64,000 bases of DNA from positions 1 to 64,000 of the forward strand of contig JAGYII010000006.1 in the NCBI GenBank assembly GCA_018402725.1, in the 5' to 3' direction. Positions within the stretch are counted from its first letter, which is position 1; each line of letters begins with the position of its first letter. The DNA comes from Candidatus Izemoplasma sp. Lineage in GTDB: Bacteria; Bacillota_I; Bacilli_A; Izemoplasmatales; Izemoplasmataceae. Below, piece by piece: positions 3,008-45,765 of this stretch. A program made the position numbers and the translations under genes. The notes below the pieces were generated by a model. It had not been told where the DNA came from. It saw only the letters and a list, made by a program, of their open reading frames with translations, and ran no database searches.

Positions 3008-3010
3008 TTT

Positions 3011-3037: not shown

Positions 3038-3047
3038 AGCGGATTGC

Positions 3048-3076
3048 TTGGTTTCATTACGATTAACCGATATAAT
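3048..3076 (+). promoter_or_regulatory. Promoter of the ABC exporter/cytochrome b5 operon
   Basis: TTGGTT (3048-3053), 17-base spacer, TATAAT (3071-3076), about 20 bp ahead of the ABC transporter start. It fits a housekeeping sigma-70/SigA promoter. Confidence 0.6.
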
Positions 3077-3096
3077 ACTTGCGAGGTAAAAAAATA

Positions 3097-5397: not shown

Positions 5398-5410
5398 TAA
5401 GGAGTATTGT

Positions 5411-6007: not shown

Positions 6008-6010
6008 CAA

Positions 6011-6037
6011 AAAGTGGTGAAAACCACTTTTTTTTTA
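6011..6037 (+). terminator. Rho-independent terminator after the cytochrome b5 lipoprotein
   Basis: An 8-bp stem AAAGTGGT/ACCACTTT with a short loop, then a T run. Confidence 0.85.
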
Positions 6038-6103
6038 CGATTTTTCTTTTCAAAAAAAATCCGAGTGATATGATGGAATTAAGCATCAAAAGGAAGGAAC
6101 CCT

Positions 6104-12701: not shown

Positions 12702-13725
12702 GCGGTCCCATCCCAATTTTTAGTTGTGCTAAGTTATGATTAAACATATCAAATAAGGTGAGTCCTTCTTCAAGTTCTTCAGATGTTAAAATCGCTTTTG
12801 AATAAAGATATAATATCACTGCGCCGGTTTCTGAAGCGAGGGTCGTTGCGACATTCTGAGCAATCAATTTCTCTGAAAATAGATGCGTGGATTGAGTTTC
12901 ATTCATCGTTTGAATCATATCTTGTAAGGCTCCAGGAGTTGGTTCAGCATCGGTTGAAAATCCAGCATACGCATTCACAAAGGTAATATCGTAGCGGGCT
13001 GCCAAATAAGCAAAAGCATTATGGCCACCATGCATCATAACCTCAGAACTTCGGGTCGTCATCCAGTTACTATAAGCAACATGAATCGCTTGAAGTTCAT
13101 CGATATAGGCTTGAGCATTAGCTGTAATCTCATCCGCACTTTCAGGAGCTAATTCAATCATCGCATCCCGAATGGTTGAAACTAAAATAATCAAATTAAT
13201 CGGATCTGTCCAGATGTGTGGGTCATAAATACCGTGATCATGGTCATCATGATCATCGTGCTCATCATGGTCATCGTGCTCATCATGGTCATCATGCTCA
13301 TCGTGCTCATCATGGTCATCATGGTCATCGTGCTCATCATGGTCATCGTGCTCATCATGGTCATCGTGCTCATCTTCACTTTCGACTAAACCAATATAAC
13401 TTGCCATTTCTAAAACCTGAACACTTCTTTGGGCTAAGTCAGGTTCAATCCGGCTCACCCAGCTCTCTAAAGATTCACTATTAAATATAAATAGATTCGA
13501 TTCTAAAATGCGCACGAGTTGAGAAGGGGACGGATCAAAATCATGAGGATCAGTTCCGGGGGGAAGGATTAAAGAAACGTCCATCTCATCGGTTGCTAAA
13601 GAACGAATGATGTCGTAATACGGAAACAAAGTCGTCGTGATTTTAATTTGATCACTAGACGGCGTTTGACAGGCGGCTAATATTAAGACAAATAAAAGGC
13701 TGATGGATACTACTAATTTACGCAT
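12694..13725 (-). CDS. znuA: Zinc-binding lipoprotein of the ZnuABC importer
   Basis: 343 residues. Signal and lipobox LAAC at residues 16-19. Cluster A-I binding protein with metal ligands expected at His61 (DPHDFDP), His170 (DPHIWTDP), a His in MMHGGHNAFAYL and an acidic residue in FSTDAEPTPG. Between the first two ligands lies a very long Asp/Glu/His-rich loop (about residues 119-164), built of DDHDEH-type repeats. In ZnuA proteins this loop gathers zinc and modulates delivery; here it is unusually regular and long. First gene of the operon, with GGAGG before the ATG. Confidence 0.93.
   Translation of the reverse strand: MRKLVVSISLLFVLILAACQTPSSDQIKITTTLFPYYDIIRSLATDEMDVSLILPPGTDPHDFDPSPSQLVRILESNLFIFNSESLESWVSRIEPDLAQRSVQVLEMASYIGLVESEDEHDDHDEHDDHDEHDDHDDHDEHDEHDDHDEHDDHDEHDDHDDHDHGIYDPHIWTDPINLIILVSTIRDAMIELAPESADEITANAQAYIDELQAIHVAYSNWMTTRSSEVMMHGGHNAFAYLAARYDITFVNAYAGFSTDAEPTPGALQDMIQTMNETQSTHLFSEKLIAQNVATTLASETGAVILYLYSKAILTSEELEEGLTLFDMFNHNLAQLKIGMGPRE
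13230..13371 (-). repeat. Nine-base-periodic repeat coding the His/Asp-rich loop
   Basis: Interleaved units related to TCATCATGG and TCATCGTGC recur with 9-bp periodicity over about 140 bp inside znuA. They read as Asp-His-Asp / Glu-His-Asp triplets. Slippage could change loop length without frameshift. Confidence 0.85.
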
Positions 13726-13757
13726 TTTTTAAAGACCTCCGAGTTTCTACAAGGCCT

Positions 13758-13795
13758 ATTATACGATAAACATTCCTAAATGCAAGTCATTCTCA
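13758..13795 (-). promoter_or_regulatory. znu promoter with overlapping candidate Zur/Fur box
   Basis: On the minus strand TTGCAT (13785-13780), 16-base spacer and TATAAT (13763-13758) precede znuA. Overlapping the -35 is TGAGAATGACTTGCA (13795-13781), which fits a Fur-family 7-1-7 inverted repeat imperfectly (the left half is close to consensus). Repressor binding here would block RNA polymerase. The site is inferred from position and similarity only. Confidence 0.5.
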
Positions 13796-13800
13796 TTAAA

Positions 13801-16128: not shown

Positions 16129-16316
16129 CGGGCACCTTCATTGAGCAAAACTTTTCCGCTTAAAACGTGAAAGGTTTTTTTCCCAAGAGCAATACAAAAA
16201 CCCGCTTGATCCTGTTTTAGGAGCGAGGGGTTAAATGTCATCACCTTAGTCTTAAAACCCAAAGTGAATGCACCATATTTTAGAAAATTGATTATCGGAA
16301 AAAATAGGTATTTCAT
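16125..16316 (-). CDS. Small protein of unknown function upstream of the helicase
   Basis: 63 residues from the ATG at 16316, chosen for GGAG about 6 bases ahead. A hydrophobic, aromatic N-terminus (KYLFFPIINFLKYGAF) is followed by a basic/polar half. I do not recognise a family. The 4-bp ATGA overlap with the helicase start suggests real translation and coupling, perhaps only as a leader cistron. It is divergent from the photolyase operon, sharing a 64-bp intergenic region. Confidence 0.5.
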   Translation of the reverse strand: MKYLFFPIINFLKYGAFTLGFKTKVMTFNPSLLKQDQAGFCIALGKKTFHVLSGKVLLNEGAR

Positions 16317-16336
16317 AAAGACTCCTAGGGCCATTT

Positions 16337-16359
16337 TAGCATAGCTAATATGCTATAAT
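16337..16359 (+). promoter_or_regulatory. Photolyase promoter -10 with perfect inverted repeat
   Basis: TATAAT at 16354-16359 lies 22 bp before the CRY-DASH start. A perfect 7-5-7 inverted repeat, TAGCATA-gctaa-TATGCTA (16337-16355), overlaps it and also sits between the divergent start sites of the small gene and the photolyase. It is well placed as an operator. No clear -35 is seen, which would suit an activator-dependent or regulated promoter. Confidence 0.5.
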
Positions 16360-16380
16360 GTTGAAAAGTGAAGAGGTTTT

Positions 16381-17748
16381 ATGGTCAACCTAATTTGGTT
16401 TCAAAATGATTTAAGAATTCATGATCACGCAGCCCTTTATCATGCGACCAAAGCGAACCTACCGTTGGTCGGTTTTTACGCGCGGTCATTTTCTCATCCG
16501 AATGCTAAAAAGTCAGCAAAGTCGGCTTTAAGAAAAGCCTACATTGACCAAACGTTGCTGTCCCTTAAAACCTCTTTAGCCGTCTATAACATTCCCTTGA
16601 TCGTAGTCGATGGCTCGGCTTTTAATAGCCTTAAGATCCTTTCTGAATCTTTTGCTATTCAGTCCATCTATGGACATTATTCAGCCAGTCCCTTTGAACG
16701 GTATGAGGCTGTCAAAATTCAAAAAGAATTTGATCTTAAGCTTTATGAAACTGAAACCTTGATTCATCCCAGTGATTTAGGATTTGACCTTCAACAGGTC
16801 CCTCAAGGGTTCACCTCTTTTCGTAAAAAAGTTGAAATGAATTTCCAGATTAGACCTCTCATTGAAACCTCATTAAAGCCTCAAGAACCTCTTGAGATAG
16901 ATGAAGCCTTTAGCCCTGACTTAACCCCGTTATTGATTCAAGCCGGGGAGCAAGCGGGGATGGACCGCGTCCATCATTATTTAGAAGGCACAAAAAAAAT
17001 TAAAACCTATAAAGAAACTAGAAACGGAATGTTGAAGTTTGATGACTCCACTAAGTTTTCATTTTATTTATCGATTGGCGCTTTATCACCACGATATATT
17101 TACCACCGGATTAAAGCTTTTGAAGCTCAGTTTGGGGGAAATGAATCGACCTACTGGGTGATATTTGAAATGTTGTGGCGTGACTTTTTTAAGTTTCAAG
17201 AACGAAAACACCCTAAAGCGTTTTATGCCCAAACAGGGCTTCAACATAAATCGATTGCCTGGCTTGATAATCCCCACTACTATCACGCCATTACCACCGG
17301 TCAAACAGGATTTCCTCTGGTGGATGCGAATATCAAAGAACTTTTAAAAACGGGATACATGTCCAACCGGGGCCGTCAAAATGTGGCGAGTTTTTGGGTT
17401 AAGAATGCGGGGCTTGATTGGCAACTTGGGGAGCGTTTCTTTGAGACGCATCTTTTAGACTATGACGTGGCTTCTAATACCGGTAACTGGCAATATATTG
17501 CGGGGATTGGCAATGACTTTGTACCCTTTCGCTTTTTTGATATCGTCAAACAAGGCAACACCTATGATGCTGATACGTCTTATTTACTGCACTACCTCCC
17601 TGCCCTTAAAGACGTTCCGGTTTTTAAACGGTATGGGTTCGGTCATTTATCTAAAGATGAAAGAGAAGTTTATGATATCGACTATCCGGCTCCTATTTTT
17701 TCGTTTTATGAAGGATTAAATCTCATGAAAAAAAGGTACGGCGAATGA
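16381..17748 (+). CDS. Cryptochrome/photolyase, DASH type
   Basis: 455 residues. N-terminal alpha/beta antenna domain (1-170, IWFQNDLRIHDHAAL) and C-terminal FAD domain. Diagnostic DASH/photolyase segments include ETRNGMLKFDDSTKFSFYLS, LWRDFFKF, NRGRQNVASFWVKN and DYDVASNTGNWQYIAGIGND, which holds the Asn and Trp that contact FAD. CRY-DASH proteins repair cyclobutane dimers, mainly in single-stranded DNA, using blue light. The length suits the class (430-500). The downstream Fe-S photolyase overlaps it by 4 bp, so the two are co-expressed. Confidence 0.92.
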   Translation: MVNLIWFQNDLRIHDHAALYHATKANLPLVGFYARSFSHPNAKKSAKSALRKAYIDQTLLSLKTSLAVYNIPLIVVDGSAFNSLKILSESFAIQSIYGHYSASPFERYEAVKIQKEFDLKLYETETLIHPSDLGFDLQQVPQGFTSFRKKVEMNFQIRPLIETSLKPQEPLEIDEAFSPDLTPLLIQAGEQAGMDRVHHYLEGTKKIKTYKETRNGMLKFDDSTKFSFYLSIGALSPRYIYHRIKAFEAQFGGNESTYWVIFEMLWRDFFKFQERKHPKAFYAQTGLQHKSIAWLDNPHYYHAITTGQTGFPLVDANIKELLKTGYMSNRGRQNVASFWVKNAGLDWQLGERFFETHLLDYDVASNTGNWQYIAGIGNDFVPFRFFDIVKQGNTYDADTSYLLHYLPALKDVPVFKRYGFGHLSKDEREVYDIDYPAPIFSFYEGLNLMKKRYGE

Positions 17749-33505: not shown

Positions 33506-34886
33506 AAAATGGGGCAATAAATCGTTGCGTTTTGATTTCATAATGGTGGGCGAGGGCAATCAGCGTTTCCTCACTCCAGGCGGGGCCCATAAAGACCATC
33601 GATTTAGGAATTAAATCCTTTAATGATTTCGCAGGCACCACCACTGAAGGGTGACCGAGGGCTGGACCATAGGCGTTCCATTCTAAACTGACCATCGCAT
33701 CGAGGCCTTCGGTTTCATAAAGCGAGGTAAAGACACTTGCTTGGGCATCCACTTTTGCACGGATTTTGAGATATTCTTTTGATTTCAAGGTGTGCTTAAT
33801 CGCTTGGGCTTCTTCTAGTAATGATTGGCCGTATTTTAAACACGTCTCAGGGTTTTTTGAATTAAAGGCGATAATATCCTTTAATGAATTCATCGCGGTA
33901 AAGCCTTTGACCGTTTTTAAATATTGATTTAAACCGTTTTTGAATTCAATGATCATCGATTCAATGACATCTAAAGGGACTCGGGGTACGGTCAGGGTTT
34001 TGATGGTGAGGCCTTCTTGGTGAAAGATCTGAATCAGTTCTTCTTTCAGTTTTTGATCCACCTCAGAAAGAGGGGAGCCTTCAAATTCAATAAATCCAAG
34101 GGTTTTATCTTTGATTGGAGCGTGGATGGCATTCGCATAATTAATCGACCATGAGGGGACCTTTAAAGTCGCTTCATCATCAACATCCAGTCCTTTCATG
34201 GCCTCTAATAAAAGGGCCGCATCCTCGACCGTTCTTGCCATGGGACCCGGGGTATCTTGAACCGGGGAGACGGGAATGATTCCATACCTTGAAACTAATC
34301 CCACGGTCGGTTTAATCGCTACGGTTGAGGTATGGTAAGCGGGGGCCATCAAAGACCCTGAAGTTTCAGTGCCAATGGCTACCGGGGTATACCCACACGC
34401 CATCGCTACCGCGGATCCGGTCGATGAACCAAGGGGGTCTAGTTTCCCATACGGATTTTTTACTTGACCTTTCCTCGAAGAGTACCCTGAGGGCATCCCG
34501 GGACGGTGCATGAAATAAGCAAATTCAGAAAGATTGGTTTTCCCTAAAATAATTGCCCCTGCTTTTCGGAGGTTTTTAACCAGCGTCGCTTCATAAGGAG
34601 CATTCAAATCAGAAAGGGCGAGCGATCCGGCCGTGGTTAAAAGACCGTCGGTGGTGTTGATATTATCTTTAATTAGAATCGGGATGCCATGAAGGGGAGA
34701 TTTAGGACCTGAGTGGTCCCATTCTTTATCTAGAGCTCTCGCGATTTTAATCGCATCTCCCGTGGTTTCAGCCACAGCATTATAGTTTGGATCGTGTTCG
34801 TCAATGAGGGCGAGTGATTGCTCCACAAGTTTGACCGCAGTCAGCGTCTTCTTCCGGAACTGATCATGAATGTTTTTTAGATGCAT
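33504..34886 (-). CDS. Amidase-signature family hydrolase
   Basis: 460 residues. The Ser-cisSer-Lys triad is visible: Lys in ILIKDNINT, cis-Ser in LGSSTGSAVAMA and the nucleophile Ser in GTETSGSLMAPA. The last motif departs from the usual GTDTGGSIRxPA (Gly to Ser and Arg lost), as in some peptide amidases and non-GatA members. No GatB/C is nearby, so it is probably a stand-alone amidase and not the tRNA amidotransferase subunit. Cytosolic; substrate unknown. Confidence 0.85.
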   Translation of the reverse strand: MHLKNIHDQFRKKTLTAVKLVEQSLALIDEHDPNYNAVAETTGDAIKIARALDKEWDHSGPKSPLHGIPILIKDNINTTDGLLTTAGSLALSDLNAPYEATLVKNLRKAGAIILGKTNLSEFAYFMHRPGMPSGYSSRKGQVKNPYGKLDPLGSSTGSAVAMACGYTPVAIGTETSGSLMAPAYHTSTVAIKPTVGLVSRYGIIPVSPVQDTPGPMARTVEDAALLLEAMKGLDVDDEATLKVPSWSINYANAIHAPIKDKTLGFIEFEGSPLSEVDQKLKEELIQIFHQEGLTIKTLTVPRVPLDVIESMIIEFKNGLNQYLKTVKGFTAMNSLKDIIAFNSKNPETCLKYGQSLLEEAQAIKHTLKSKEYLKIRAKVDAQASVFTSLYETEGLDAMVSLEWNAYGPALGHPSVVVPAKSLKDLIPKSMVFMGPAWSEETLIALAHHYEIKTQRFIAPF

Positions 34887-34898
34887 CGACGCCTCCTA

Positions 34899-34926
34899 TA
34901 AAAAAAACCCTGTTCATCGGGTTTTT
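34899..34926 (-). terminator. Terminator of tRNA-Ala
   Basis: AAAAACCC/GGGTTTTT stem with a T run on the minus strand, about 20 bp past the tRNA 3' end. Confidence 0.75.
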
Positions 34927-34944
34927 CGTGTGAGTCAAGTTTTG

Positions 34945-35017
34945 TGGAGCCAACGGGGCTCGAACCCGCGACCTCTAGCATGCCATGCTAGCGCTCTCCC
35001 AGCTGAGCTATGGCCCC
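34945..35017 (-). tRNA. tRNA-Ala(GGC)
   Basis: A 73-nt cloverleaf: acceptor GGGGCCA/TGGCTCC with discriminator A, D arm GCTC/GAGC, anticodon stem CTAGC/GCTAG with loop ATGGCAT (anticodon GGC), and T loop TTCGAGC. CCA is not encoded (CAA follows), unlike the tRNA-Arg at 26469. Confidence 0.95.
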
Positions 35018-35027
35018 TTAGTTACAC

Positions 35028-35056
35028 ATTGTATATAAAGTTTAAAGGTTTGACAA
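35028..35056 (-). promoter_or_regulatory. Promoter of tRNA-Ala
   Basis: On the minus strand TTGTCA (35056-35051), 17-base spacer, TACAAT (35033-35028), 11 bp before the tRNA. Confidence 0.7.
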
Positions 35057-35058
35057 GC

Positions 35059-35682
35059 TTATTTATTATCTATTAAGAATTGTTCGACTTTAGAAGCGAT
35101 CAAATCCACAGCGGTTTCATGATTGAGGTCATTAGGAATAATCACATCCGCATACCGCTTCGTCGGTCTTACAAATTGATGGAACATCGGTTTAACGGTG
35201 GTTTGATATTGCTCGATGATGCTTTCTAAAGACCGTCCTCGGTCCTTTAAGTCGCGCATCATCCTTCTTATAAAACGGGTATCATCATCGAGCTCTACAA
35301 AAATTGATAAGTTTGATAAGGCCCGAATTCTCGGGTCATCTAAGATCAGGATACCCTCTAAGATAATGACTTTCTTAGGGGCGATGGTTTCGGTTTTTTC
35401 AAGGCGTCTAAAAGTCACAAAATCATAGGTAGGTTTCTCAATCGATTCCCCTCTTAAAAGGGCTTTAACCTGGGCAATGAGAGTATCATTATCTAAACTC
35501 TCAGGATGGTCGTAATTGATTTTTTGACGCTCACTTAAAGAAAGGGTCGGCGTATCTTTGTAGTAATCATCATGTTTGATGATTAATACGTCTTTTAACC
35601 CGGCTCTTTGAACAATTTTTTCAACGACGGTACTTTTCCCAGAGGCGGACCCCCCAGCAACACTAATCACGTATGGATTCAT
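35059..35682 (-). CDS. udk: Uridine/cytidine kinase
   Basis: 207 residues. P-loop GGSASGKST, HDDYYKD, YDHPESLDNDTL and the EGILILDDPRIRALSNLSIF stretch match uridine kinase closely. It phosphorylates uridine and cytidine for pyrimidine salvage. Monocistronic. Confidence 0.95.
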   Translation of the reverse strand: MNPYVISVAGGSASGKSTVVEKIVQRAGLKDVLIIKHDDYYKDTPTLSLSERQKINYDHPESLDNDTLIAQVKALLRGESIEKPTYDFVTFRRLEKTETIAPKKVIILEGILILDDPRIRALSNLSIFVELDDDTRFIRRMMRDLKDRGRSLESIIEQYQTTVKPMFHQFVRPTKRYADVIIPNDLNHETAVDLIASKVEQFLIDNK

Positions 35683-35769
35683 ACTTCCATTATAGCGAAA
35701 ATCTCATAACTTTAATTGACATTCTTTTCTATTTTTATTGTGTTCTTGATAAATGATAAACTAATTTTT

Positions 35770-36945
35770 TTATTCCGATAAAGCGGTAATGATTTCATCA
35801 CTCGTTAAAGCCCCTCTGAGTTGGCCCATTTGATCTAAGACCGCGACATCGTATATCGAATCACTCATTACTTTTAAAGCTTCACTGAGATACATGTTTC
35901 TTGTGATGATATTTTCATCCGGTTGAATATAGGTTTCTAAGCTTTGAGCGCTTTTTCCTTTGAGTGCTTCTTTATCGATATATCCTAAATATTTCTTCTG
36001 GTCGCCCACCACGAATAAGAATTCTGATTCGGTGGCTCTCATGAGGTCTCGTGCTTCTTTGGCGGACGCTTTCACATGAATCATATTTTTAACCCGGTGC
36101 ATCACGTTACGGGCTTTTAAGACCCTCGATTTATCGACATCGGCGATAAAATCGATGACATAATCGTTAGCGGGGTTTTTAAAGAATTCTAACGGGGTTC
36201 CAATTTGAACGACTTCGGCGTCTTTTAATAAGGCAATCCGGTCGCCGATTCTAAAGGCTTCGTTCATATCATGGGTAATAAAGACAATGGTCCGCTCAAA
36301 CGAATCATCGAGGGTGAGAAGTTCATTTTGCATCTCTCTTCGAATCAAGGGATCAAGCGCGCTATAGGGTTCATCCATGAGTAAAAGCTCAGGGTCATTG
36401 ACTAAGGCCCTAGCGAGGCCCACCCGTTGTTGCATCCCCCCAGAAAGTTCTGAGGGTAAGCTTTCACCCCAGCCTTTTAAGCCGACTTGTTCAATGACTT
36501 GAAGGGCTTTTTTACGGCGCTCATCTTTGGGGATCCCTTGAACTTCTAAGGGGTATTCGATGTTTTCTAAGACCGAGCGATGGGAGAGTAATCCAAAATG
36601 TTGAAAGACCATCGAGACATCTTTCCGGCGGTATTCTCTGAGCTCTTTTTTTGAGAGTTCTAAAAGACTTTTACCGTTGATTTTAATGTCACCACTGGTC
36701 GGAGTGTTGAGTAAATTTAAGGCTCTAATAAAAGTACTTTTTCCACTTCCAGAAAGGCCGACAATGACAAAAAGTTCGTCGGGTTCAATTTCAAAACTGA
36801 CCTTCTTATTGGCGACGGTTGCACCTGTGATTTTACGGATCTCTGAAGCAGACAATCCTTCTTCAATCAGTTTCAAGGCTTCCTTTTGGGCTTTGGGGCG
36901 GCCAAAAATAATGCTTAAATTTTCAACGGATACGTGTTTAGCCAT
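35770..36945 (-). CDS. opuAA: Glycine betaine/proline ABC transporter ATP-binding protein
   Basis: 391 residues. The N-terminal extension typical of ProV/OpuAA precedes Walker A GLSGSGKST; signature LSGGMQQRVGLARAL, Walker B LLLMDEPYSALDPL and switch FITHDMNEA follow. Two C-terminal CBS-like repeats (about 285-391, ending VLDQMGQLRGALTSDEIITA) are the ionic-strength sensor in OpuA. I start it at the ATG at 36945, inside the permease 3' end. It forms an osmoprotectant uptake system with the next two genes. Confidence 0.9.
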   Translation of the reverse strand: MAKHVSVENLSIIFGRPKAQKEALKLIEEGLSASEIRKITGATVANKKVSFEIEPDELFVIVGLSGSGKSTFIRALNLLNTPTSGDIKINGKSLLELSKKELREYRRKDVSMVFQHFGLLSHRSVLENIEYPLEVQGIPKDERRKKALQVIEQVGLKGWGESLPSELSGGMQQRVGLARALVNDPELLLMDEPYSALDPLIRREMQNELLTLDDSFERTIVFITHDMNEAFRIGDRIALLKDAEVVQIGTPLEFFKNPANDYVIDFIADVDKSRVLKARNVMHRVKNMIHVKASAKEARDLMRATESEFLFVVGDQKKYLGYIDKEALKGKSAQSLETYIQPDENIITRNMYLSEALKVMSDSIYDVAVLDQMGQLRGALTSDEIITALSE

Positions 36946-37801
36946 TTGCGTCCGCCGTCCTTTCAAACTTCTTCGCAATCCCTTGGAAGACCCGGTCTAA
37001 AATAATCGCCATAAAGACAATCGCGAGTCCAGCTTGGACCCCTTGACCGACTTCTAAGCGCCGAATCGAGATCAGAACTTGCGACCCAATTCCATCGGCC
37101 CCAATCATCGAGGCAATGACCACCATGGCCATCGCCATCATCGTCGTTTGATTGACCCCGGTCATGATTGTGGAGATTGATTGCGGAAGCTCAATTTTAG
37201 TGAGCATTTGTAATCCGGTGGAGCCAAACGCTTTGCCGGCTTCAATCACTTCTTCATCGACATTCGTGATACCTAAATAGGTCAAGCGAATCAATGGGGG
37301 TATCGCATAAATACTGGTTGCAATCACGGCCGGGACTCTCCCTAGGCCAAAAAGCATGACCGCCGGAATTAAATACACAAAAGAAGGCATCGTCTGCATC
37401 CCATCAAGAATCGGTTTAAAGATTTTTTCAACGCGCGGAGATTTCGCCATCAGGATACCGGTCGGGATTCCAATGAAAATACTGGCCGTTACACTCATAA
37501 AAATAATCACAAGGGTATAGATCATGTCATCCCATAAACCAAACATACCGATCGCAAAAAGCATCGCTCCAAGCGTAAGACCGACTTGAATCTTATAAAG
37601 GCGCCATCCCACAATGACTAAGACAATGATATAGACCCACCAAGGGATATTACTAAAAATGGCATCAAAAATCTGAAACAAAGAATTGATAAAGGACGCA
37701 AAGCCTCTAAAAAAAGTTCTAAAATTGGCTAAGATCCAATCCACTCCGGTATCAATGAAGCCGCTGATACGGTAAATCAGTTGATCTGGAAATCGAATCA
37801 T
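36938..37801 (-). CDS. opuAB: Glycine betaine/proline ABC transporter permease
   Basis: 287 residues, about six to seven helices. The EAA loop VIEAGKAFGSTGLQMLTKIELP and the ProW-type IPTGILMAKSPRVEKIFKPI identify it. Unlike lactococcal OpuA the binding domain is not fused; a separate lipoprotein is encoded just upstream. The ATPase start overlaps its end by 8 bp. Confidence 0.9.
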   Translation of the reverse strand: MIRFPDQLIYRISGFIDTGVDWILANFRTFFRGFASFINSLFQIFDAIFSNIPWWVYIIVLVIVGWRLYKIQVGLTLGAMLFAIGMFGLWDDMIYTLVIIFMSVTASIFIGIPTGILMAKSPRVEKIFKPILDGMQTMPSFVYLIPAVMLFGLGRVPAVIATSIYAIPPLIRLTYLGITNVDEEVIEAGKAFGSTGLQMLTKIELPQSISTIMTGVNQTTMMAMAMVVIASMIGADGIGSQVLISIRRLEVGQGVQAGLAIVFMAIILDRVFQGIAKKFERTADANG

Positions 37802-37829
37802 ACGTTCACTCCTTTTCCATAAATAAAGG

Positions 37830-37847
37830 GTAGCGCCTCGGCGCTAC
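37830..37847 (-). promoter_or_regulatory. Intercistronic hairpin between opuAC and opuAB
   Basis: A perfect 7-bp GC-rich stem GTAGCGC/GCGCTAC with a 4-base loop and no T run lies in the 66-bp gap. It could stabilise the binding-protein mRNA or attenuate downstream genes, a common way to make more binding protein than permease. Confidence 0.5.
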
Positions 37848-37867
37848 TCCTTATTTTTAGTTCGATG

Positions 37868-38839
37868 TTATTGTAAAGCTTCGTCTAAAGCGGTAAGGAC
37901 TTTTTCAGCAATGTCTGAATGTAACCAAGCGGTCCACATGTCACGGTTGTTATCTAAGAACCACAACGCTGCTTCATAGGCTTCTACTTCATTTTCAATC
38001 ATGTAACCAAGCGCTTCTGAGGTTAAATCTGAAGTGGTTTCATATTGCGACAAGAACGCGGCAATTTCGGGGTACTCATCGACAAATCCAGGACGAACCA
38101 CGACATTGACTCTGACACTTGGAAAGGCGCCTAAACCTTGTTCAAAAGCCTCGGCTGAATAAGGTTCATCACCTAATAAGACAAGATCATAAACCCCAAG
38201 GACCCAGGTCGGTTCCCAGTTATAGCCGACCCAAGGTAATTCATTCGCAAATGCATCAGCGATGGTCGCAGATAAGATAGCGTTTGAATCGATGGTTCTA
38301 AATTCATACATTTCATCGAGTCCTAGCGCTTCCATTTTATTATTTAAAAAGGCGGTTGCTGACCATCCTTCAGGTCCACCGTAAATAATCCCTTTGCCTT
38401 CGATATCAGGATGGGCAAATAAATCGACATAATCCGGTAAGTCTTGGACGGTTCTTAATCCAGGGTAGGCATCATAAATATAACGCGGGATATAAAGCCC
38501 TTGCGCGTTATCATCAAAATTGACGCTAAGTTCTTCATAATACCCAGCGACAAGATCGTCGGGGTATGAGGGAATATTATCAGACCAAATTTCTAAGGAT
38601 ACATCGAGGTCACCTGAACGTAAGGACTGAACCGTCACCGCGGTATCACTCATGACCGAACGGGTTTTCATATCAAAACCGTTTTCGATGATAAACCGAG
38701 CCACTTCATCATGGAAGGCATTGCTGTCCCAGTCGCCTTGACCAAACACCAATTCTTCATCGGTGTCACAGGCGGCGAGGGCAAATAAGGATACGCCTAG
38801 TAAACTAAACATCAGTAACTTTTTAAATATGCTATTCAT
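37868..38839 (-). CDS. opuAC: Glycine betaine-binding lipoprotein
   Basis: 323 residues. Lipobox LAAC, then the OpuAC/ProX type II fold (VFGQGDWDSNAFHDEVA, LEIWSDNIPSYPDD, YGGPEGWSATAFLNNK, GYNWEPTWVLG). Trp residues in these segments probably form the aromatic cage for the quaternary ammonium. I use the ATG at 38839 (GGAG eight bases ahead) rather than a GTG at 38848 that overlaps the ribosome site. Confidence 0.88.
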   Translation of the reverse strand: MNSIFKKLLMFSLLGVSLFALAACDTDEELVFGQGDWDSNAFHDEVARFIIENGFDMKTRSVMSDTAVTVQSLRSGDLDVSLEIWSDNIPSYPDDLVAGYYEELSVNFDDNAQGLYIPRYIYDAYPGLRTVQDLPDYVDLFAHPDIEGKGIIYGGPEGWSATAFLNNKMEALGLDEMYEFRTIDSNAILSATIADAFANELPWVGYNWEPTWVLGVYDLVLLGDEPYSAEAFEQGLGAFPSVRVNVVVRPGFVDEYPEIAAFLSQYETTSDLTSEALGYMIENEVEAYEAALWFLDNNRDMWTAWLHSDIAEKVLTALDEALQ

Positions 38840-38922
38840 TTTCTTCACTCCTTCTTTTTTTACAACCCATAATAATTTATAAGGTTGTCAGTTATTAACA
38901 CTGTAACATAAAAATAGGTTTA

Positions 38923-38964
38923 AAACAAAAAAGACCGCTCATAAAATGGCTTTTATGAGCGGTT
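38923..38964 (-). terminator. Terminator of the Mrp-type antiporter operon
   Basis: A perfect 13-bp stem (38934-38946 with 38951-38963) and a T-rich tract on the minus strand, 30 bp after the last antiporter gene. It separates it from the betaine operon. Confidence 0.9.
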
Positions 38965-38993
38965 TAATGGGTAGATTAAGGGCTTGAAACGTT

Positions 38994-41075
38994 TTAATTT
39001 AAAATCGCAAATATACTTAAAACAATGACCATAAGGGTTAATCCAATCGCATAAATCAAGGCATCACTTTTAATAAATAAAGACTCATATTTACGGTTCA
39101 GCGTATCGGTAAAGGCCACGAGATGATCTTTGAAGGTTCGTTTATAGTTTCTAACTTGATACGACTGATAGGTCGGTAGATCCATGACGTCATGGTCCTT
39201 ATCGATCAGATTTAATAATCCGTGCATTAGAGCCGATAATGGAAATAAGATTAAATATTCTAAATGAAGCCATGGGGGGAATTTAACTTGGTCCCATTTA
39301 TATTTCATACTCAAGACATAAACGCCAATGCCCCCGGCCCATATCCCTAAGATAAGCCACAGTTCACTGGCTCCAAAAAAGGCGATATTCAGAGTTCCAT
39401 AGACGGTGAATTCAGGATCAAATGAGAGCGTCTGAAGATAAGGAACAATCATGGTTTCACTTAAAAAGCGGGGGAACACTCCGAGTAAGAATAAACTCAG
39501 AGCCATTAGAATCATTGGTGCGTAAACAGACCGGGCTTTAAATGTGATCCCCTCTAGCGCGGGGGGAAGGTCTCCAAAAAAGACCATTTTATTCATTTTG
39601 ATAAAGTAAGCCACCGTCCCAACTGAGGCCAGAATGAACAATCCTTCCGCCCATAGATAAGCCGAAGATTGATACTTCGCAGCATCGGCAATCGCATGGT
39701 GTAATACCGTCTTTGAAACAAAGCCATTAAATAAAGGCATCCCCATAATGGATAAAGAGGCAATTAGACTGACGACGAAGGTAATCGGCATCTTCTTCCG
39801 TAATCCTCCCAGTTTTCGCATGTCAATCTCATGGGTTTTAATGTACACCATGCCGACCACCATAAAGAGTAAGGATTTAAACAAGGCATGATTAAACCCG
39901 TGCATAATCGCTCCTGCTAAGCCAGGGCCCCCTTTTTCACCTTGAACCATCGCCACCCCAATCCCTAACACCACAAAACCAATTTGAGAGATTGATGAAT
40001 AAGCCAATAAACGTTTGAAGTCAACTTGCATGAAGGCGAAAAACGCTCCAAACAACATCGTGATGAGCGAAAGCCAAATCAATATCGATCCCAATAATTG
40101 AAGACCTTGACGAGAGGTGAATGGGTCGGGTAAATAAAAATAGATAAATGATTGAATCAATCCAAAGACACCGACTTTAATCATGATTCCTGAAAGTAAG
40201 CTTGAAGCGGGGGCGGGCGCAACAGGATGCGCTTTTGGGAGCCATACGTGTAAGGGCACCATTCCCGCTTTCATTCCAAATCCCATAAATAACAACAAAG
40301 CAATAAAGTATTTAGCCGGACCTTCTGAAGCCAATAAGTCATGAGCCCCCACAAACGCAAACGATCCGGTAATCGGATAGATGAGGGTTAAAGCAATAAA
40401 GATTGAAAAGCCTCCTAAAATCCCTAAAAACAAATATTCAGTCCCCGCTTCAATCGCGTTTTTAGTTTGATTATGGAGCACTAAAATATACGTAAATAAC
40501 GTCATCAGCTCATAGAGGAAAAACAACGTCAGTAAATCCCCAGCCATGAAAATTCCCATGGTTGAAGCGTACGATAAACTTAAGAAAACATAAAAACGGC
40601 GGGTATGATTTTCTTTTTTCATGTATTCATGAGCATACATCATCACAAAAAACCATAAGATAGCTGCTAATAAAATAAAGATATATGAAAGCATATTGAT
40701 TTGAAGCGAAAAGCCAAAATTAAAGACGCTGTTAAATTCAAAGCGCAAGGGTCCAGCTAATACGTTCGGATAAATCATCATGATGATAGCGATGATGAGG
40801 ATGTCTGTGATCAGTAAAATCTCATCTTTTAAGGTGAGGGATGATTGATTGAAAATCAACCGTAAAAACCCACTGAGGGTAGGCATCCCTAAGATGATAA
40901 AAGGTAAAAAGCGGGAGGCTGATAAAAAATCTGCGGTCGCTCTGAAGCCGTCAAAAAAAGGCCCGTCAAACAGCGAGGGGTTGATTAAAAACGCCACAAA
41001 ACTCCCCATCATAAATAGGCTTAAAAGGCTTAGGAAAAATGATTGTAAGGTAAATGATCTAAAGTTAAGTTTCAT
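38994..41075 (-). CDS. Second large proton-conducting antiporter subunit (MrpA/MrpD-like)
   Basis: 693 residues with about 16 helices. Complex-I/Mrp antiporter core: the key Glu in LFFLYELMTLFTYILVL, Lys in GFGMKAGMVPLHVWLPKAHP and a further Lys in FMQVDFKRLLAYSSISQIGF. It is longer than MrpD and lacks the C-terminal MrpA domains, which are encoded as separate small genes in this operon. It is the last gene, abutting mrpD by 1 bp. It could be the N-terminal half of a split MrpA moved to the operon end, or a duplicate of MrpD. No hydrogenase or NADH module follows. Confidence 0.8.
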   Translation of the reverse strand: MKLNFRSFTLQSFFLSLLSLFMMGSFVAFLINPSLFDGPFFDGFRATADFLSASRFLPFIILGMPTLSGFLRLIFNQSSLTLKDEILLITDILIIAIIMMIYPNVLAGPLRFEFNSVFNFGFSLQINMLSYIFILLAAILWFFVMMYAHEYMKKENHTRRFYVFLSLSYASTMGIFMAGDLLTLFFLYELMTLFTYILVLHNQTKNAIEAGTEYLFLGILGGFSIFIALTLIYPITGSFAFVGAHDLLASEGPAKYFIALLLFMGFGMKAGMVPLHVWLPKAHPVAPAPASSLLSGIMIKVGVFGLIQSFIYFYLPDPFTSRQGLQLLGSILIWLSLITMLFGAFFAFMQVDFKRLLAYSSISQIGFVVLGIGVAMVQGEKGGPGLAGAIMHGFNHALFKSLLFMVVGMVYIKTHEIDMRKLGGLRKKMPITFVVSLIASLSIMGMPLFNGFVSKTVLHHAIADAAKYQSSAYLWAEGLFILASVGTVAYFIKMNKMVFFGDLPPALEGITFKARSVYAPMILMALSLFLLGVFPRFLSETMIVPYLQTLSFDPEFTVYGTLNIAFFGASELWLILGIWAGGIGVYVLSMKYKWDQVKFPPWLHLEYLILFPLSALMHGLLNLIDKDHDVMDLPTYQSYQVRNYKRTFKDHLVAFTDTLNRKYESLFIKSDALIYAIGLTLMVIVLSIFAILN

Positions 41076-42565
41076 TAGGACCCCATCAAGCTCATTGCGG
41101 CGGCCTCTAAATAAGGTAATAAGAGACCCGGGAATAGACCAAGCGCAAAAATAATACCCACAAACATCAGCAAGGTAAAGCCCATCGCAAAGGGAATTTT
41201 TTCAAGTTTAAAGACTTCTTTATTATCTTCTTGAAAGAAGCTGTTCATGATGATCGGGAAGAAATATAGGGCATTAATGACCCCACTAATAATTAAAAAG
41301 GATCGCAAGTACCCTCTTGAGACCTCCATAAAGGCGAGCGAGAGTTGAAGCTTTGCCATGAAACCACTGGTTCCTGGGATGCCCACCATCCCCATCGCCC
41401 CGACGGTGAATAACATCATGGTTAGAGGAATTTTATAGCCAATTCCTTCGGTCGCTTTAATCGATTTAATACCGTGAATACTTTTGGCCATCCCCGCCGT
41501 TAAAAAGAGGAGTCCTTTAACAAAGGCGTGAGAAACGATATAAAAAAACGCAGCGACTAAACCGCCCCAGGTAAAAATACTAAACCCGAGTAAGATATAA
41601 CCGACTTGAGACACCGTGGAGTAAGCGAGCATTCGTTTAATTTCTTTTTGGCCAAGGGCAAAGGCCGATCCCATCAACATAGCGACCCCGGCTAAGACCA
41701 CCATCACGACCGGAATTCTTAAATCAATCACGACATCTAGGGTAAATAAACGGTACAACAATTTAATCAAAGTGAGTAAGTAAATCTTAATGATGACGCC
41801 TGATAAAATCGCACTCGCAGAGGTATTAGCTGAGCTGTGAGCATCGGGTAACCAGACATGAAAAGGAAAGATTGCACTTTTAATCGCTAAGCCCACTCCA
41901 ATAAAACCAAGGCTTAAACTTACGTTCACTGGATACATTGGATAAAGTTCAACGAGGCGCTCCGCCATAATCGAGACGTTTAAAGATCCCGTCAACATAT
42001 AAATTAAGGCAATTCCAAACATCACTGAAATAGACGCCAGCGTATTCATCATTAAATAACGGAAGGCCGCCATATAATTTTGTTTTTTCCGGGAGACTGA
42101 AATAATCCCGCACGCTGAAAGCGATAATATTTCGATAAAAACATACATATTAAATAGATCGTTTGAATATAAGATTCCAATCATCGAAAAGTACATCAAA
42201 CTGAGTAAACTATAATACGCGGTGTGTTGCGAAGCGGGGGTATCTAGATTTAATGAAGTCATCGAAAATAAGTGAATCAATGTCACAAAGAATAAAACGA
42301 AAAACGCAAAAAAGGCGGAGAATGAATCGATTAATAATTCAATCCCGATATTCCGTTCATACCCCCCCATTTGAAACGCAAAGGGCCCGGAAGTATGGGT
42401 ATAATTGAGGACGATAAAAGCACTGATGGTGAGGAGGGTTAGCCCCACAAGGTGCATGCCTTTAACCACCCCTTTAGAGGGAATTAGAGGACCGGCTAAA
42501 GCCATTAAAACCAAAAGTGACATTTGTAATACGGGAAAGAGTTCAAGCCATGAAAAAGGAATCAC
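41075..42565 (-). CDS. mrpD: Na+/H+ antiporter subunit MrpD
   Basis: 496 residues, about 14 helices. The conserved Glu in MYVFIEILSLSACGII and Lys in GLAIKSAIFPFHVWLPDAHS lie in the proton channel, with a downstream Lys in KEIKRMLAYSTVSQVGYILL. The length fits MrpD. It follows mrpC with a 4-bp overlap. Confidence 0.9.
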   Translation of the reverse strand: MIPFSWLELFPVLQMSLLVLMALAGPLIPSKGVVKGMHLVGLTLLTISAFIVLNYTHTSGPFAFQMGGYERNIGIELLIDSFSAFFAFFVLFFVTLIHLFSMTSLNLDTPASQHTAYYSLLSLMYFSMIGILYSNDLFNMYVFIEILSLSACGIISVSRKKQNYMAAFRYLMMNTLASISVMFGIALIYMLTGSLNVSIMAERLVELYPMYPVNVSLSLGFIGVGLAIKSAIFPFHVWLPDAHSSANTSASAILSGVIIKIYLLTLIKLLYRLFTLDVVIDLRIPVVMVVLAGVAMLMGSAFALGQKEIKRMLAYSTVSQVGYILLGFSIFTWGGLVAAFFYIVSHAFVKGLLFLTAGMAKSIHGIKSIKATEGIGYKIPLTMMLFTVGAMGMVGIPGTSGFMAKLQLSLAFMEVSRGYLRSFLIISGVINALYFFPIIMNSFFQEDNKEVFKLEKIPFAMGFTLLMFVGIIFALGLFPGLLLPYLEAAAMSLMGS

Positions 42566-42948
42566 AGATCTGCCTCCTTCTTCATCAACTCAGCAATTTC
42601 GTCTTGATTGAGCGTGCCATACGCTTGATAAATCTTAATCATCAAGGCTAACGCGTATACGGTAATTGATACACTGATCACAATCCCCGTTAAGATTAAT
42701 GCACTCGGTAGTGGATTGATGAACGACGCGGGTGTGAGGGCTTCTGGATTGACAATCGGAACCTCACCCCCTGAGATATTTCCAATCGCTACGAAGAAAT
42801 AAAAGACTGCTGAAGACATCACGTTTATTCCAATAATCCGTTTCATTAAGTTAGGATGAGCAATCACCATATAAAGACCAATCACAAAAATAATGACGGC
42901 CCCTAGAAAATGGATATTCGCCACAAAAAGTTCAAAAGCATTCATCAC
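42562..42948 (-). CDS. mrpC: Na+/H+ antiporter subunit MrpC (NuoK-like)
   Basis: 128 residues, three helices, NuoK-type. Conserved segment KRIIGINVMSSAVFYFFVA and ALILTGIVISVSITVYALAL match MrpC. It overlaps both neighbours by 4 bp. Confidence 0.9.
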   Translation of the reverse strand: MMNAFELFVANIHFLGAVIIFVIGLYMVIAHPNLMKRIIGINVMSSAVFYFFVAIGNISGGEVPIVNPEALTPASFINPLPSALILTGIVISVSITVYALALMIKIYQAYGTLNQDEIAELMKKEADL

Positions 42949-43373
42949 GAGGGCTCTCCTTCTATCAAGGCACTAAACAAAGTCATCAACGTAGACCCGA
43001 CTTTAATCCCAATCGCAATCATTAATAAAGGGATAAATCCCCCTGAAAGAATTTGACCCGGCGTTCCCGCCGCAAATCCTGCCGTTAAATTTGATAAAAA
43101 AGAGGCGCCAAATATTAGGCCAAAAAGGCCCAGTAACACGTACATCATAGCGCCCCCGGATTCAGCCCAGGCCGACACTTTTTCTGGAAAAATCGCTTCA
43201 GTTTCTTGATGGCCAAAGGTCAACCCATACAAGATCAACGAAGCCCCTAAAATCGCGCCCCCAGAGAATCCCCCACCCGGTGTTATATGGCCATGCAAAA
43301 TAATAAAAACACCGTATAACTGAATAAAAGGCAATAACAATTGCACCATGGTTTTTAATAAACGATTATCCAT
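42945..43373 (-). CDS. mrpB: Na+/H+ antiporter subunit MrpB
   Basis: 142 residues with four helices. LYGVFIILHGHITPGGGFSG is the MrpB/MbhF signature. It overlaps the MbhE-like gene by 8 bp. Confidence 0.9.
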   Translation of the reverse strand: MDNRLLKTMVQLLLPFIQLYGVFIILHGHITPGGGFSGGAILGASLILYGLTFGHQETEAIFPEKVSAWAESGGAMMYVLLGLFGLIFGASFLSNLTAGFAAGTPGQILSGGFIPLLMIAIGIKVGSTLMTLFSALIEGEPS

Positions 43374-43647
43374 GCGGGGTCTCCTTTTTATCGGGTTTTA
43401 AAACCGATAAGACCGCTAAGATTGAGGTGAACAACACCAATGTTTCAATCATCGTATCAAAGGCTCTAAAGTCAGCAATAATGGCCGCAACAATATTCGT
43501 AGCTCCCGTTAAGTTTAGGCCTTCGTTTAAATAAATATCGGTCGCTTCGTTATAGGTCAACGGTCCAATTTGAGTGGGCATATAAAAAACACTCACCACC
43601 AACATCGTTCCTAATAGAATTGAAAGAACTAATCCGATTTTTTTCAT
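43366..43647 (-). CDS. MbhE-like antiporter subunit (C-terminal part of MrpA)
   Basis: 93 residues, two helices. NIVAAIIADFRAFDTMIETL matches the segment near the end of MrpA (DFRxFDTxxE), found as separate MbhE in membrane-bound hydrogenase-type operons. Here it is a free cistron next to mrpB. Confidence 0.82.
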   Translation of the reverse strand: MKKIGLVLSILLGTMLVVSVFYMPTQIGPLTYNEATDIYLNEGLNLTGATNIVAAIIADFRAFDTMIETLVLFTSILAVLSVLKPDKKETPHG

Positions 43648-43883
43648 CGCTCGTACCGCTCCGTTTTTGCTAAGACGGCAAGCATCACGACCGTGGTAAT
43701 GCCCGCACCAACAGCCGCTTCAGTTAAGGCGACATCGGGGGCTTGTAAAATTAACCATAAGACCGATAAAACTAAAGAAAACGCTGCAAAAATGATAATA
43801 GCGCTTAATAAGTCTTTGGTTCTTTCCACCATTAAGGCACAAGCAATCAATAAAAAGACTAAAAAGATGGTCAAAAATGTCAT
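43644..43883 (-). CDS. DUF4040/MbhD-like antiporter subunit (part of MrpA)
   Basis: 79 residues, about three helices. LQAPDVALTEAAVGAGITTV is diagnostic of the DUF4040 segment of MrpA and of MbhD. As a separate small protein it shows that MrpA is split. Overlaps its neighbours by 4 bp. Confidence 0.88.
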   Translation of the reverse strand: MTFLTIFLVFLLIACALMVERTKDLLSAIIIFAAFSLVLSVLWLILQAPDVALTEAAVGAGITTVVMLAVLAKTERYER

Positions 43884-44176
43884 GCCTGATCTCCTTTGCG
43901 GTAGGCGGCTTTAGCGATTAAGTGCGCGGCAGTCGGGGTCGTTAACCAGGTTATAGCCAAGAGGACGACGAGTCGCAATACCGTGAAATTAAATCCATAT
44001 AGAAACATTAATCCAAGAATAATAAGTCCCACTCCTAAGGTATCTCCTTTGGTGGTGGTATGAATCCGTGAAAAAACATCGGGCATCCTGATTAGTCCCA
44101 AAACGCCCACCAAAAAGAAAAAGGCCCCGGTGAGTAAAAAGATAGAGGCGATGATTGAAATCACTAAATCGATCAT
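43880..44176 (-). CDS. mrpG: Na+/H+ antiporter subunit MrpG
   Basis: 98 residues, three helices. FLVGVLGLIRMPDVFSRIHT and TKGDTLGVGLIILG are the MrpG signature. Confidence 0.92.
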   Translation of the reverse strand: MIDLVISIIASIFLLTGAFFFLVGVLGLIRMPDVFSRIHTTTKGDTLGVGLIILGLMFLYGFNFTVLRLVVLLAITWLTTPTAAHLIAKAAYRKGDQA

Positions 44177-44436
44177 TTCAACGACCCCTTCTCTAAGTAT
44201 TTGACTACGGCCACGGTCGTTAAAAAGCCAATCATCGCATACAAGATGGCGACATCGATAAAGCTGGGCTGATCAAAATAAAAGGCTAATAAAACGATAA
44301 TCGCAACAACGAGGGTTGTGATTAAGTTAATGGCGATAATCCGGTCTGAAACCGTCGGGCCCTTCAATGCCCGGGATATACTTAAAACAATTAGAAGCGC
44401 TAAAAAAACCGTGACGCCTAAAATGAGATCAAGCAT
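44173..44436 (-). CDS. mrpF: Na+/H+ antiporter subunit MrpF
   Basis: 87 residues, three helices. RALKGPTVSDRIIAINLITT and DVAILYAMIGFLTTVAVVKY identify MrpF. It overlaps mrpE by 8 bp. Confidence 0.92.
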   Translation of the reverse strand: MLDLILGVTVFLALLIVLSISRALKGPTVSDRIIAINLITTLVVAIIVLLAFYFDQPSFIDVAILYAMIGFLTTVAVVKYLEKGSLK

Positions 44437-44935
44437 CTTTATCCTCTTTTTCTAGCCCTTCAAAATAGCGCCATGCTTTCGAGTCTTTTAAATCGTCGAT
44501 ATGATGGGGAAGTAAGCCATGAATCAGCATTGTCTCATCATCAAAATCAACGGTGAGGGTACCCGGTGTTAAGGTGATTGAATTGGCAAATATGGTTTGA
44601 TTAAAGGACCGTTTGAGAGGTTGTTTTACGGTATAAAAAGCCGGCTCAATGGGCATCTTCTTTTGAAGGACAATTTTTGCCACTTCGATATTAGCCATCC
44701 ATAAATCTTTAAGCCAATAAAGAAAAAAGAGAGTCAGGTTTTTAAGCTGGAAAAACTTAAAAGGACTAAACGCAGAAAACGGTAAAAGCGCTCTTCTTAA
44801 AAAAAGGGCCACCAAGAACGAAGCCAACAAGCCAATCCACCATTCATTAAAGGATCTAAACTCGGCTAAAATTAACCAAAATATAAATAGAATCAGCGTG
44901 GTAAAAAGTACACTTTTCGATTGCTTTAAAGACAA
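44429..44935 (-). CDS. mrpE: Na+/H+ antiporter subunit MrpE
   Basis: 168 residues. Membrane N-terminus, then ANSITLTPGTLTVDFDDETM, the MrpE signature. It appears to start at a TTG (44935) with GGAGG eight bases ahead; I see no better ATG. First gene of the nine-gene operon E-F-G-D'-E'-B-C-D-A', an order like the antiporter half of archaeal Mbh. The complex would expel Na+ in exchange for protons. Confidence 0.88.
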   Translation of the reverse strand: MSLKQSKSVLFTTLILFIFWLILAEFRSFNEWWIGLLASFLVALFLRRALLPFSAFSPFKFFQLKNLTLFFLYWLKDLWMANIEVAKIVLQKKMPIEPAFYTVKQPLKRSFNQTIFANSITLTPGTLTVDFDDETMLIHGLLPHHIDDLKDSKAWRYFEGLEKEDKDA

Positions 44936-45033
44936 GAAAACCGCCTCCTTAACTGCGTATATAGTTTACTCCAGCCCGCCAAAATATGCAACCTTTAACC
45001 AGGGAGTGATATACTAAAAATGAGGTGTTTTTT

Positions 45034-45765
45034 ATGAAACCAGTCGCCATTATTACCGGCGCATCCGGTGGGATTGGACGAGGGATTGCGGAGCTTTTTT
45101 TAAGTCGTGATTACCAAGTTGTCTTACATACCCACCAGAAGCCCGAATCAATGACCCTCCTTTTAAAACAATTCCCACCATCACAAGGGGTGGTTTTTCA
45201 AGGCGATCTGACCGATAAAAAGGTCACTGAAGCCTTGGCTTTAAAAGCGATGGATACTTTTGGAAGAATTGATGTTTTAGTGAATAATGCTGGGTTAAAA
45301 ATGGATGGAGCCATCGATGAAATGACCCTTGAGTCTTTTAATCGCGTCATGGATGTGAATCTGACTTCCATCTTTTTAATGACCCAAGCTGTGGTCCCAT
45401 TTATGAAAAAGCAAAGGCACGGATCGATTATCAATTTAAGTAGCGGAATTGGCTATCAAGGCCGGCCTTTAAACGTCAACTATGCGGCTTCAAAAGCAGC
45501 ACTCATTGGCCTTATCCCCTCCCTAGCCAAAGAACTTGGGCCTTATCAAATCAGAGTCAACGGCGTGGCCCCAGGCCTCATTCCAACCGAGATGACGTCT
45601 TATTATTCCAAAGAGGAGCAAGAAATTTACCGTGAAACCGTTCCTTTAAAACGATTAGCCACGCCGTTAGATATTGGTAAAGCGGTTTATTTTTTAGCCT
45701 CTGATGAAGCGGCATTTATTTCCGGACAGACCTTATTTGTCAACGGAGGGACCCAAACCCATTAA
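45034..45765 (+). CDS. Short-chain dehydrogenase/reductase
   Basis: 243 residues, classical SDR: cofactor motif TGASGGIGRGIA, NNAG, catalytic Ser in INLSSGIGYQG, and YAASKAAL (Tyr-x-x-x-Lys). C-terminal ISGQTLFVNGGTQTH. It is near FabG-type 3-oxoacyl reductases, but no fatty-acid genes adjoin, so the substrate is open. I use the ATG at 45034 (GAGG 8-9 bases ahead) rather than a GTG at 45025. Confidence 0.88.
   Translation: MKPVAIITGASGGIGRGIAELFLSRDYQVVLHTHQKPESMTLLLKQFPPSQGVVFQGDLTDKKVTEALALKAMDTFGRIDVLVNNAGLKMDGAIDEMTLESFNRVMDVNLTSIFLMTQAVVPFMKKQRHGSIINLSSGIGYQGRPLNVNYAASKAALIGLIPSLAKELGPYQIRVNGVAPGLIPTEMTSYYSKEEQEIYRETVPLKRLATPLDIGKAVYFLASDEAAFISGQTLFVNGGTQTH

Follow-up and report, generated by a model that had tools for sequence, protein, structure and literature searches.

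The mrp gene cluster

The window analysed here is a stretch of 64,000 nucleotides from Candidatus Izemoplasma sp. (positions 1 to 64,000 of the forward strand of contig JAGYII010000006.1, assembly GCA_018402725.1), and it carries on its minus strand, between positions 38994 and 44935, nine genes for the subunits of an Mrp-type Na+/H+ antiporter. All nine frames are open, in the order MrpE-F-G-MbhD-MbhE-B-C, followed by genes for two large antiporter-like subunits of 496 and 693 amino acids (aa), and all nine proteins score over the Pfam cut-off of the expected family. The order E-F-G-DUF4040-MbhE-B-C-D plus a 693-aa subunit, as given in a preliminary description of this locus, is thereby confirmed, and its statement that the C-terminal pieces of MrpA are separate cistrons also stands, with MbhD and MbhE each in a frame of its own. 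The features are as follows.

44429..44935, minus strand: MrpE, Na+/H+ antiporter subunit, 168 aa, TTG start (Pfam MNHE, 6.4e-32)
44173..44436, minus strand: MrpF, 87 aa (Pfam MrpF_PhaF, 9.8e-20)
43880..44176, minus strand: MrpG, 98 aa (Pfam PhaG_MnhG_YufB, 1.6e-26; NCBIfam TIGR01300 over cut-off)
43644..43883, minus strand: MbhD/DUF4040, 79 aa, corresponding to a part of the MrpA C-terminal region (Pfam MbhD, 1e-22)
43366..43647, minus strand: MbhE, 93 aa, corresponding to the remainder of that region (Pfam MbhE above cut-off, 9.4e-9)
42945..43373, minus strand: MrpB, 142 aa (Pfam MnhB, 5.9e-27)
42562..42948, minus strand: MrpC, 128 aa, NuoK-like (Pfam Oxidored_q2, 1.5e-20)
41075..42565, minus strand: MrpD-type antiporter-like subunit, 496 aa (Pfam Proton_antipo_M, 2.5e-57)
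38994..41075, minus strand: H'-type antiporter-like subunit, 693 aa (Pfam Proton_antipo_M, 6.2e-60, and Proton_antipo_N)
38934..38963, minus strand: terminator-like hairpin after the last gene, 13-pair stem and T run (consensus match only)

Each of the eight gene junctions overlaps, by 8, 4, 4, 4, 8, 4, 4 and 1 bases in gene order, which fits one tightly packed operon, and the occurrence of the same gene order at other loci argues that the arrangement is not due to chance. Among the NCBIfam matches listed for the operon proteins nearly all are under their cut-offs, TIGR01300 of MrpG being over it, as would be expected of divergent family members. The terminator scan is weak when taken alone, as 17 terminator-like sites are found in the region 35000-45200, compared with a mean of 11.4 after shuffling.

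Comparison with known antiporters and respiratory complexes

We consider it probable, at about 0.82, that the cluster encodes a stand-alone group 3 Mrp antiporter, a nine-subunit membrane complex exchanging Na+ (or K+) for protons without a redox partner; the analysis itself shows the gene content and order, the conserved residues, the predicted fold of one subunit and the lack of matches to two redox core families in the assembly, and the assembly of the complex, the ion, the roles of the subunits, the direction of transport and the physiological role are inferred from published structures and relatives. The layout is of a published kind, that of an ordinary member of group 3. Group 3 is defined by the lack of mrpA and the presence of mrpD only, sometimes in several copies (PMC8415708). 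This is in agreement with the cluster, which has no fused MrpA and two Proton_antipo_M genes, these being the only two matches in its own assembly when this is searched with the 693-aa protein. Group 3 is also described as having each subunit present in an irregular gene order, with examples from anaerobes and cyanobacteria (PMC5703873), and in the window E, F, G, MbhD, MbhE, B, C, D and H' are all found by Pfam. The fused MrpA and the gene order A-B-C-D-E-F-G of group 1, the Bacillus type, are both absent. All functional domains of the group 1 antiporters of Bacillus and Anoxybacillus (mrpABCDEFG; PMC7419157, PMC5703873, PMC8415708) are likewise present in the window, where E-F-G come first and the counterparts of MrpA are divided over three genes, the fold of the 693-aa protein matching the N-terminal half of MrpA.

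The plasmid cluster of Peptoclostridium acidaminophilum DSM 3953 (EAL2_RS12435-12475) is like that of the window, with the order E-F-G-MbhD-MbhE-B-C-D...H', separate MbhD and MbhE, and 19 kb of displayed sequence without a gene for a catalytic hydrogenase, for which the gene table may be incomplete. An extra antiporter-like subunit (486 aa), placed between D and H', and a sensor kinase/response regulator pair downstream set it apart. Nearly the same order is seen in Haloarcula, where one DUF4040 protein replaces MbhD and MbhE. The stand-alone Mrp of Pyrococcus furiosus (PF1147-53, mrpEFGBB'CD; PMC8415708) likewise has E-F-G first, small genes for the MrpA C-terminal region and no redox genes, and is Na+ coupled, but its MbhD and MbhE are fused and a second antiporter-like subunit is absent (PMC8415708). 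The MBS complex of P. furiosus has the same membrane-arm parts, including an H' subunit with a C-terminal extension, and differs in having the redox arm MbsJKLMN, no such arm being found here with the two redox families searched, and in the fusion of MbhE and MbhF into MbsE (PMC7684303). 'Ca. Nitrospira alkalitolerans', an organism of another phylum, is described as having a group 3 Mrp with two further NuoM/NuoL-like genes downstream of mrpD (PMC7784846), compared with one in the window; the likeness is drawn from this published description.

These comparisons bear on two further statements of the preliminary description. It had held that the catalytic hydrogenase half is missing and has been replaced by another proton-channel protein. 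In the Pyrococcus MBS, however, MbsH and MbsH' are both present beside the redox genes, and Bacillus Mrp also has two antiporter-like subunits, the N-terminal part of MrpA and MrpD (PMC7684303, PMC8415708), so that a second such subunit needs no replacement to account for it, the stand-alone Mrp of P. furiosus being the exception; this reading is not supported. The proposal of an ancestral or intermediate form is not supported either, as the layout is also found in Peptoclostridium, nearly so in Haloarcula, and in published group 3 Mrps. Overall, the interpretation given there is partly supported.

By the open reading frame and Pfam reading, the operon itself has no redox module genes, which sets it apart from MBH and MBS. 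In the host genome as a whole (a 1.02-Mb assembly of 42 contigs, 85.5% complete), no match was found to Complex1_49kDa (PF00346) or to Oxidored_q6 (PF01058), each of these models being positive in 11 of the 14 control genomes; the search covered these two core families, with others such as NiFeSe_Hases outside its scope.

The two antiporter-like subunits

The relationships of the large subunits were examined in a tree of 82 rows, which is unrooted (displayed with midpoint rooting), has several long branches flagged and includes five partial PDB rows; it excludes frames shorter than 400 aa and those whose best score did not exceed 40 bits, and relatives at cut-off loci, such as L046-L048 and L057, are missing from it. 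The 496-aa protein, of which the best PDB match is MbsH (6u8y_H, 175.5 bits), falls within a clade of 17 group 3 D subunits (support 100/99). It retains the channel residues E145, K229, K260 and K405 and has Y342 at the histidine site, where a tyrosine is also seen in both ordinary MrpD rows of the alignment. This grouping and the retained channel residues identify it as an MrpD.

The 693-aa protein retains all five charged channel residues, E189, K269, K300, H392 and K455, corresponding to E128, K217, K248, H336 and K399 of MbsH' as given in PMC7684303 (positions counted in the alignment reading). Its AlphaFold2 model, obtained with nine alignment rows, is of middling quality (mean predicted local distance difference test score, pLDDT, 66.4; predicted template modelling score, pTM, 0.73). 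The first Foldseek match of this model is MrpA of B. pseudofirmus, with a template modelling score of 0.70 by query length, and in VIA-align the MrpA chains superimpose with Z 35.2-36.5 over residues 55/56 to 606-631, and the MbsH' chain with Z 34.7. Thus both the channel residues and the fold (Z 33-36 for the MrpA, NuoL, NuoM and MbsH' chains) are those of the 14-helix MbsH'/NuoL/MrpA-N core. Beyond this core, hydropathy shows a transmembrane (TM) segment at residues 572-590 and a last one at 666-693, where the confidence of the model is low, and the fold alignments end near residue 631; in the alignment the relatives, MBX H' and HyfB have a comparable extension.

The PDB matches of the 693-aa protein are MbhH (6cfw_H, 203 bits), then MbsH' (6u8y_X, 173 bits) and MrpA (7qru_A, 149 bits). 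In the tree it lies in a clade of its own kind of 15 rows (100/99), which is joined by four proteins from Peptoclostridium and families f14 and f16 (87/90); the Peptoclostridium member, a 647-aa protein, is on a long branch, and the last subunit of Haloarcula falls outside the clade. Approximately unbiased (AU) tests, for which the groups were picked after the tree was seen, so that the moderate p values (0.009, 0.011) call for caution, reject the grouping of the 693-aa family both with the 12 D proteins from clusters of the same kind (15+12 rows, p-AU 2e-91) and with the two ordinary MrpD (19+2 rows, p-AU 0.011). A clade with the five MbsH'-type rows is not rejected (19+5 rows, p-AU 0.26).

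Several observations weigh against reading the cluster as a stand-alone antiporter of the Mrp kind. The group 3 D proteins from outside the genus have, in this set, a histidine where the 496-aa protein has a tyrosine. In VIA-align, the NuoM-type chain 6tjv_D (Z 35.6) and NuoL (up to 35.0) tie with MrpA; as Z differences this small are mostly ties, the fold agrees with the antiporter-like family as a whole. In the 693-aa model, pLDDT drops to values near 40-50 over the final 60 residues, and the clamp helix is therefore weakly predicted. Most of the motif in helix VIII that is said to distinguish MrpA and NuoL (PMC4938563) is absent from the 693-aa protein, with LSGIMIK instead of LSATMVK; of its T, M and V only the M is shared, and the histidine lies within an insert of the alignment. 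Placing the 693-aa family in one clade with MrpA is also rejected (19+2 rows, p-AU 0.0087, a test with just two MrpA rows in a long-branched tree). Finally, a genome 85.5% complete and a search with two redox families do not prove that a redox partner is absent.

From the mostly absent motif and the rejected MrpA clade it follows that the equation of the 693-aa protein with the N-terminal half of MrpA is by position and fold, and not by orthology. From the trees, the protein is most aptly described as a separate H' class, neither a late copy of MrpD nor a strict orthologue of MrpA, and this class is possibly allied to MbsH'.

Related clusters and the number of antiporter-like subunits

When 41 genomes of relatives, including the host, were searched with the 693-aa protein, 29 had a match at E <= 0.001, many of them to related subunits only, and in a sample of the phylum 12 of 392 genomes reached 1e-60. 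From part of these matches 27 stretches were taken and read together with L032, the Peptoclostridium locus (L075) and L076. A contig scan with the single 693-aa protein, which reaches near relatives only, gave six loci, one of them of the window kind (L032, a locus of the same genus, placed in Mycoplasmatota).

Three kinds of clusters are found among the relatives. In window-type clusters no redox gene was recognised, with Pfam scans covering part of the flanks. Clusters with one large subunit (533-547 aa), like the P. furiosus Mrp, occur at four loci, on L039, L049, L050 and L051. MBS/MBX-like clusters occur at L052-L055, in four genomes of the same family as the host, an assignment made by Pfam for three L052 proteins and by matching frame lengths for the other three loci. 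In one genome (G009, on L039) a one-subunit cluster (2476-6815) and a window-type cluster (10774-16833) lie approximately 4 kb apart.

The 15 window-type clusters that run uncut from E through the last large subunit differ in the count of large subunits. Two are present at six loci (the window, G009, G020, G083, G155 and G156), three at another six (as D-D-H' in G002 and G003, as D-H'-H' in G028 and G032, and in Peptoclostridium and Haloarcula) and four at the remaining three (G319, G360 and G336). At least three are present in G339, where the locus is cut; further loci are cut earlier. The D-D pair and the H'-H' pair are separate duplications in the tree, and both copies of each pair retain the charged channel residues, with a tyrosine at the histidine site in the D-D pair. 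At L071, L072 and L073, window-type clusters have four consecutive antiporter-like subunits, which exceeds complex I of E. coli by one; MbhE and B are fused at these three loci, and at L074 a single 371-aa frame matches both MbhD and B. In the phylum sample, MbhE has 24 matches in 22 of the 392 genomes, 20 of them over the cut-off. All of these are in frames of 93-375 aa, so that none belongs to a fused MrpA, although the same model is positive in B. subtilis; from these sequences, the split form of MrpA looks like the rule in the sample.

The stretch between the TM segment near 572-590 and the last TM segment, as read from hydropathy, is 75 residues long in the window, with two large subunits, and 75 residues in L032, with three, where it has an extra hydrophobic stretch inside; it is 52 residues in L071 and 39 in L073, with four subunits each, and 47 in Peptoclostridium, with three. 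The idea that the lateral helix measures out the subunit number is rejected, as this length does not grow with it, which argues against a simple row of three or four clamped subunits, or for alternative complexes assembled from one operon.

Proposed mechanism, sodium energetics and alternative explanations

In the proposed mechanism, subunits E, F, G and B together with MbhD would form the cation path, and MbhD, MbhE and C the coupling zone. The 496-aa and the 693-aa protein would lie next to each other as two subunits that conduct protons, both clamped by the C-terminal extension of the latter, and the 693-aa protein would occupy the place of the N-terminal half of MrpA in Bacillus. In an acidifying cell the exchanger would expel protons at the expense of Na+ influx, and under an alkaline or salt load it would run the opposite way. 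It probably links the sodium gradient to the cytoplasmic pH, given that primary Na+ pumps of the Rnf/Nqr type and an ATP synthase of the Na+ type seem to be present in the host. The F-type ATP synthase of the host genome has a c subunit with Q33, E66, T67, T68 and Y71, which were matched by motif, without a formal alignment, to Gln32, Glu65, Ser66, Thr67 and Tyr70 of I. tartaricus; the conserved Na+ ligands of this subunit are Gln/Glu32, Glu65 and Ser/Thr66 (PMC2359735). Two loci match NQR2_RnfD_RnfE, and their gene surroundings are, by inspection, Rnf-like in one case and Nqr-like, or those of a second Rnf cluster, in the other. Judged from these genes, the energy metabolism of the cell is probably sodium-based, as in P. 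furiosus. A cultured Izemoplasma is reported to have Rnf and complex I (PMC8397711). An RnfC-like gene (by inspection) of the host genome, at L081 201-1489, consists of three short frames, perhaps because of frameshifts or an assembly error.

It is possible, if somewhat doubtful, that the complex serves in classical salt and alkali resistance, extruding Na+ at the expense of the proton gradient alongside the uptake of osmoprotectants. Directly downstream of the mrp operon, also on the minus strand, lies an OpuA-type glycine betaine ABC transporter (35770-38848; OpuAC, a permease and an ATPase with a weak CBS match), and such a transporter also follows the operon in L032, while L038 shows its ATPase gene, cut at the edge. 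This proposal agrees with the description of the Halomonas and Bacillus Mrp as exporting Na+ and importing H+ (PMC7784846), and glycine betaine transporters are the only salt-out genes reported in the Izemoplasma genomes of PMC12993556. The Opu gene order in the window is, however, opposite to that in L032, and the binding proteins score just 31 bits; the neighbourhood may be an independent or rearranged one. Moreover, the terminator-like site separates the Opu genes from mrp, no Opu-mrp link was found by phmmer outside the genus in the available flanks, which are of unequal lengths, and pumps of the Rnf/Nqr type would reduce the need for Na+ export. Further along, a 68-aa frame at 34870-35076 on the plus strand overlies a tRNA-Ala at 34944-35017 on the minus strand and is probably spurious.

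That the cluster provides the membrane arm for a respiratory complex of the MBH/MBS kind, with the redox genes elsewhere in the genome, an outcome that the preliminary description had named as contrary to its own reading, we regard as highly unlikely. It would be in agreement with the unrejected clade with MbsH', with the incompleteness of the host assembly and with the MBS/MBX-like clusters of the host's family; in L052, genes for 30-kDa, 49-kDa and pyridine nucleotide oxidoreductase proteins are found downstream of H', past two unscanned frames. The host genome, however, gave no 49-kDa or Oxidored_q6 match, and the MBX H and H' proteins of L052-L055 are in clades apart from the D and H' of the window. 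The H proteins of these loci also differ at several channel residues that are retained in the window D, with E at the TM7 lysine site, S, T or G at the TM8 lysine site and L, M or F at the histidine site. Their H' proteins retain all five channel residues.

Scarcely credible is a 693-aa gene that arose as a late MrpD duplicate with an added tail, in a complex without an MrpA-like energy input: both large subunits belong to Proton_antipo_M, with 30% identity across the matched part, and late duplications do exist in the relatives (D-D in G002 and G003, H'-H' in G028 and G032), but the AU tests reject both MrpD groupings, in line with the preliminary description, and the C-terminal extension is aligned in HyfB and MBX H' too.

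Implications

As it stands, the finding matters little, adding a wall-less lineage to a published antiporter group. The only point worth following is the number of pump-like subunits, which varies between relatives (two, three or four) and is mildly new: in the literature searched, which left most subscription journals outside its scope, none of the matches listed gives a count of two to four subunits for redox-free clusters. A further idea, which we regard as rather unlikely, is that the redox-free Mrp exchangers of this phylum and of its relatives are modular, their subunit number shifting between two, three and four by independent duplication or gain and altering the proton-to-sodium ratio like gears, without a longer clamp helix.

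The relation between subunit number and proton stoichiometry is debated for complex I, and a complex I with increased proton pumping capacity was reportedly described by Chadwick in 2018. If the variation is true at the protein level, there would be natural complexes with two, three and four antiporter-like subunits in which the redox arm is absent, and these would offer a direct approach to how the number of subunits sets the proton stoichiometry.

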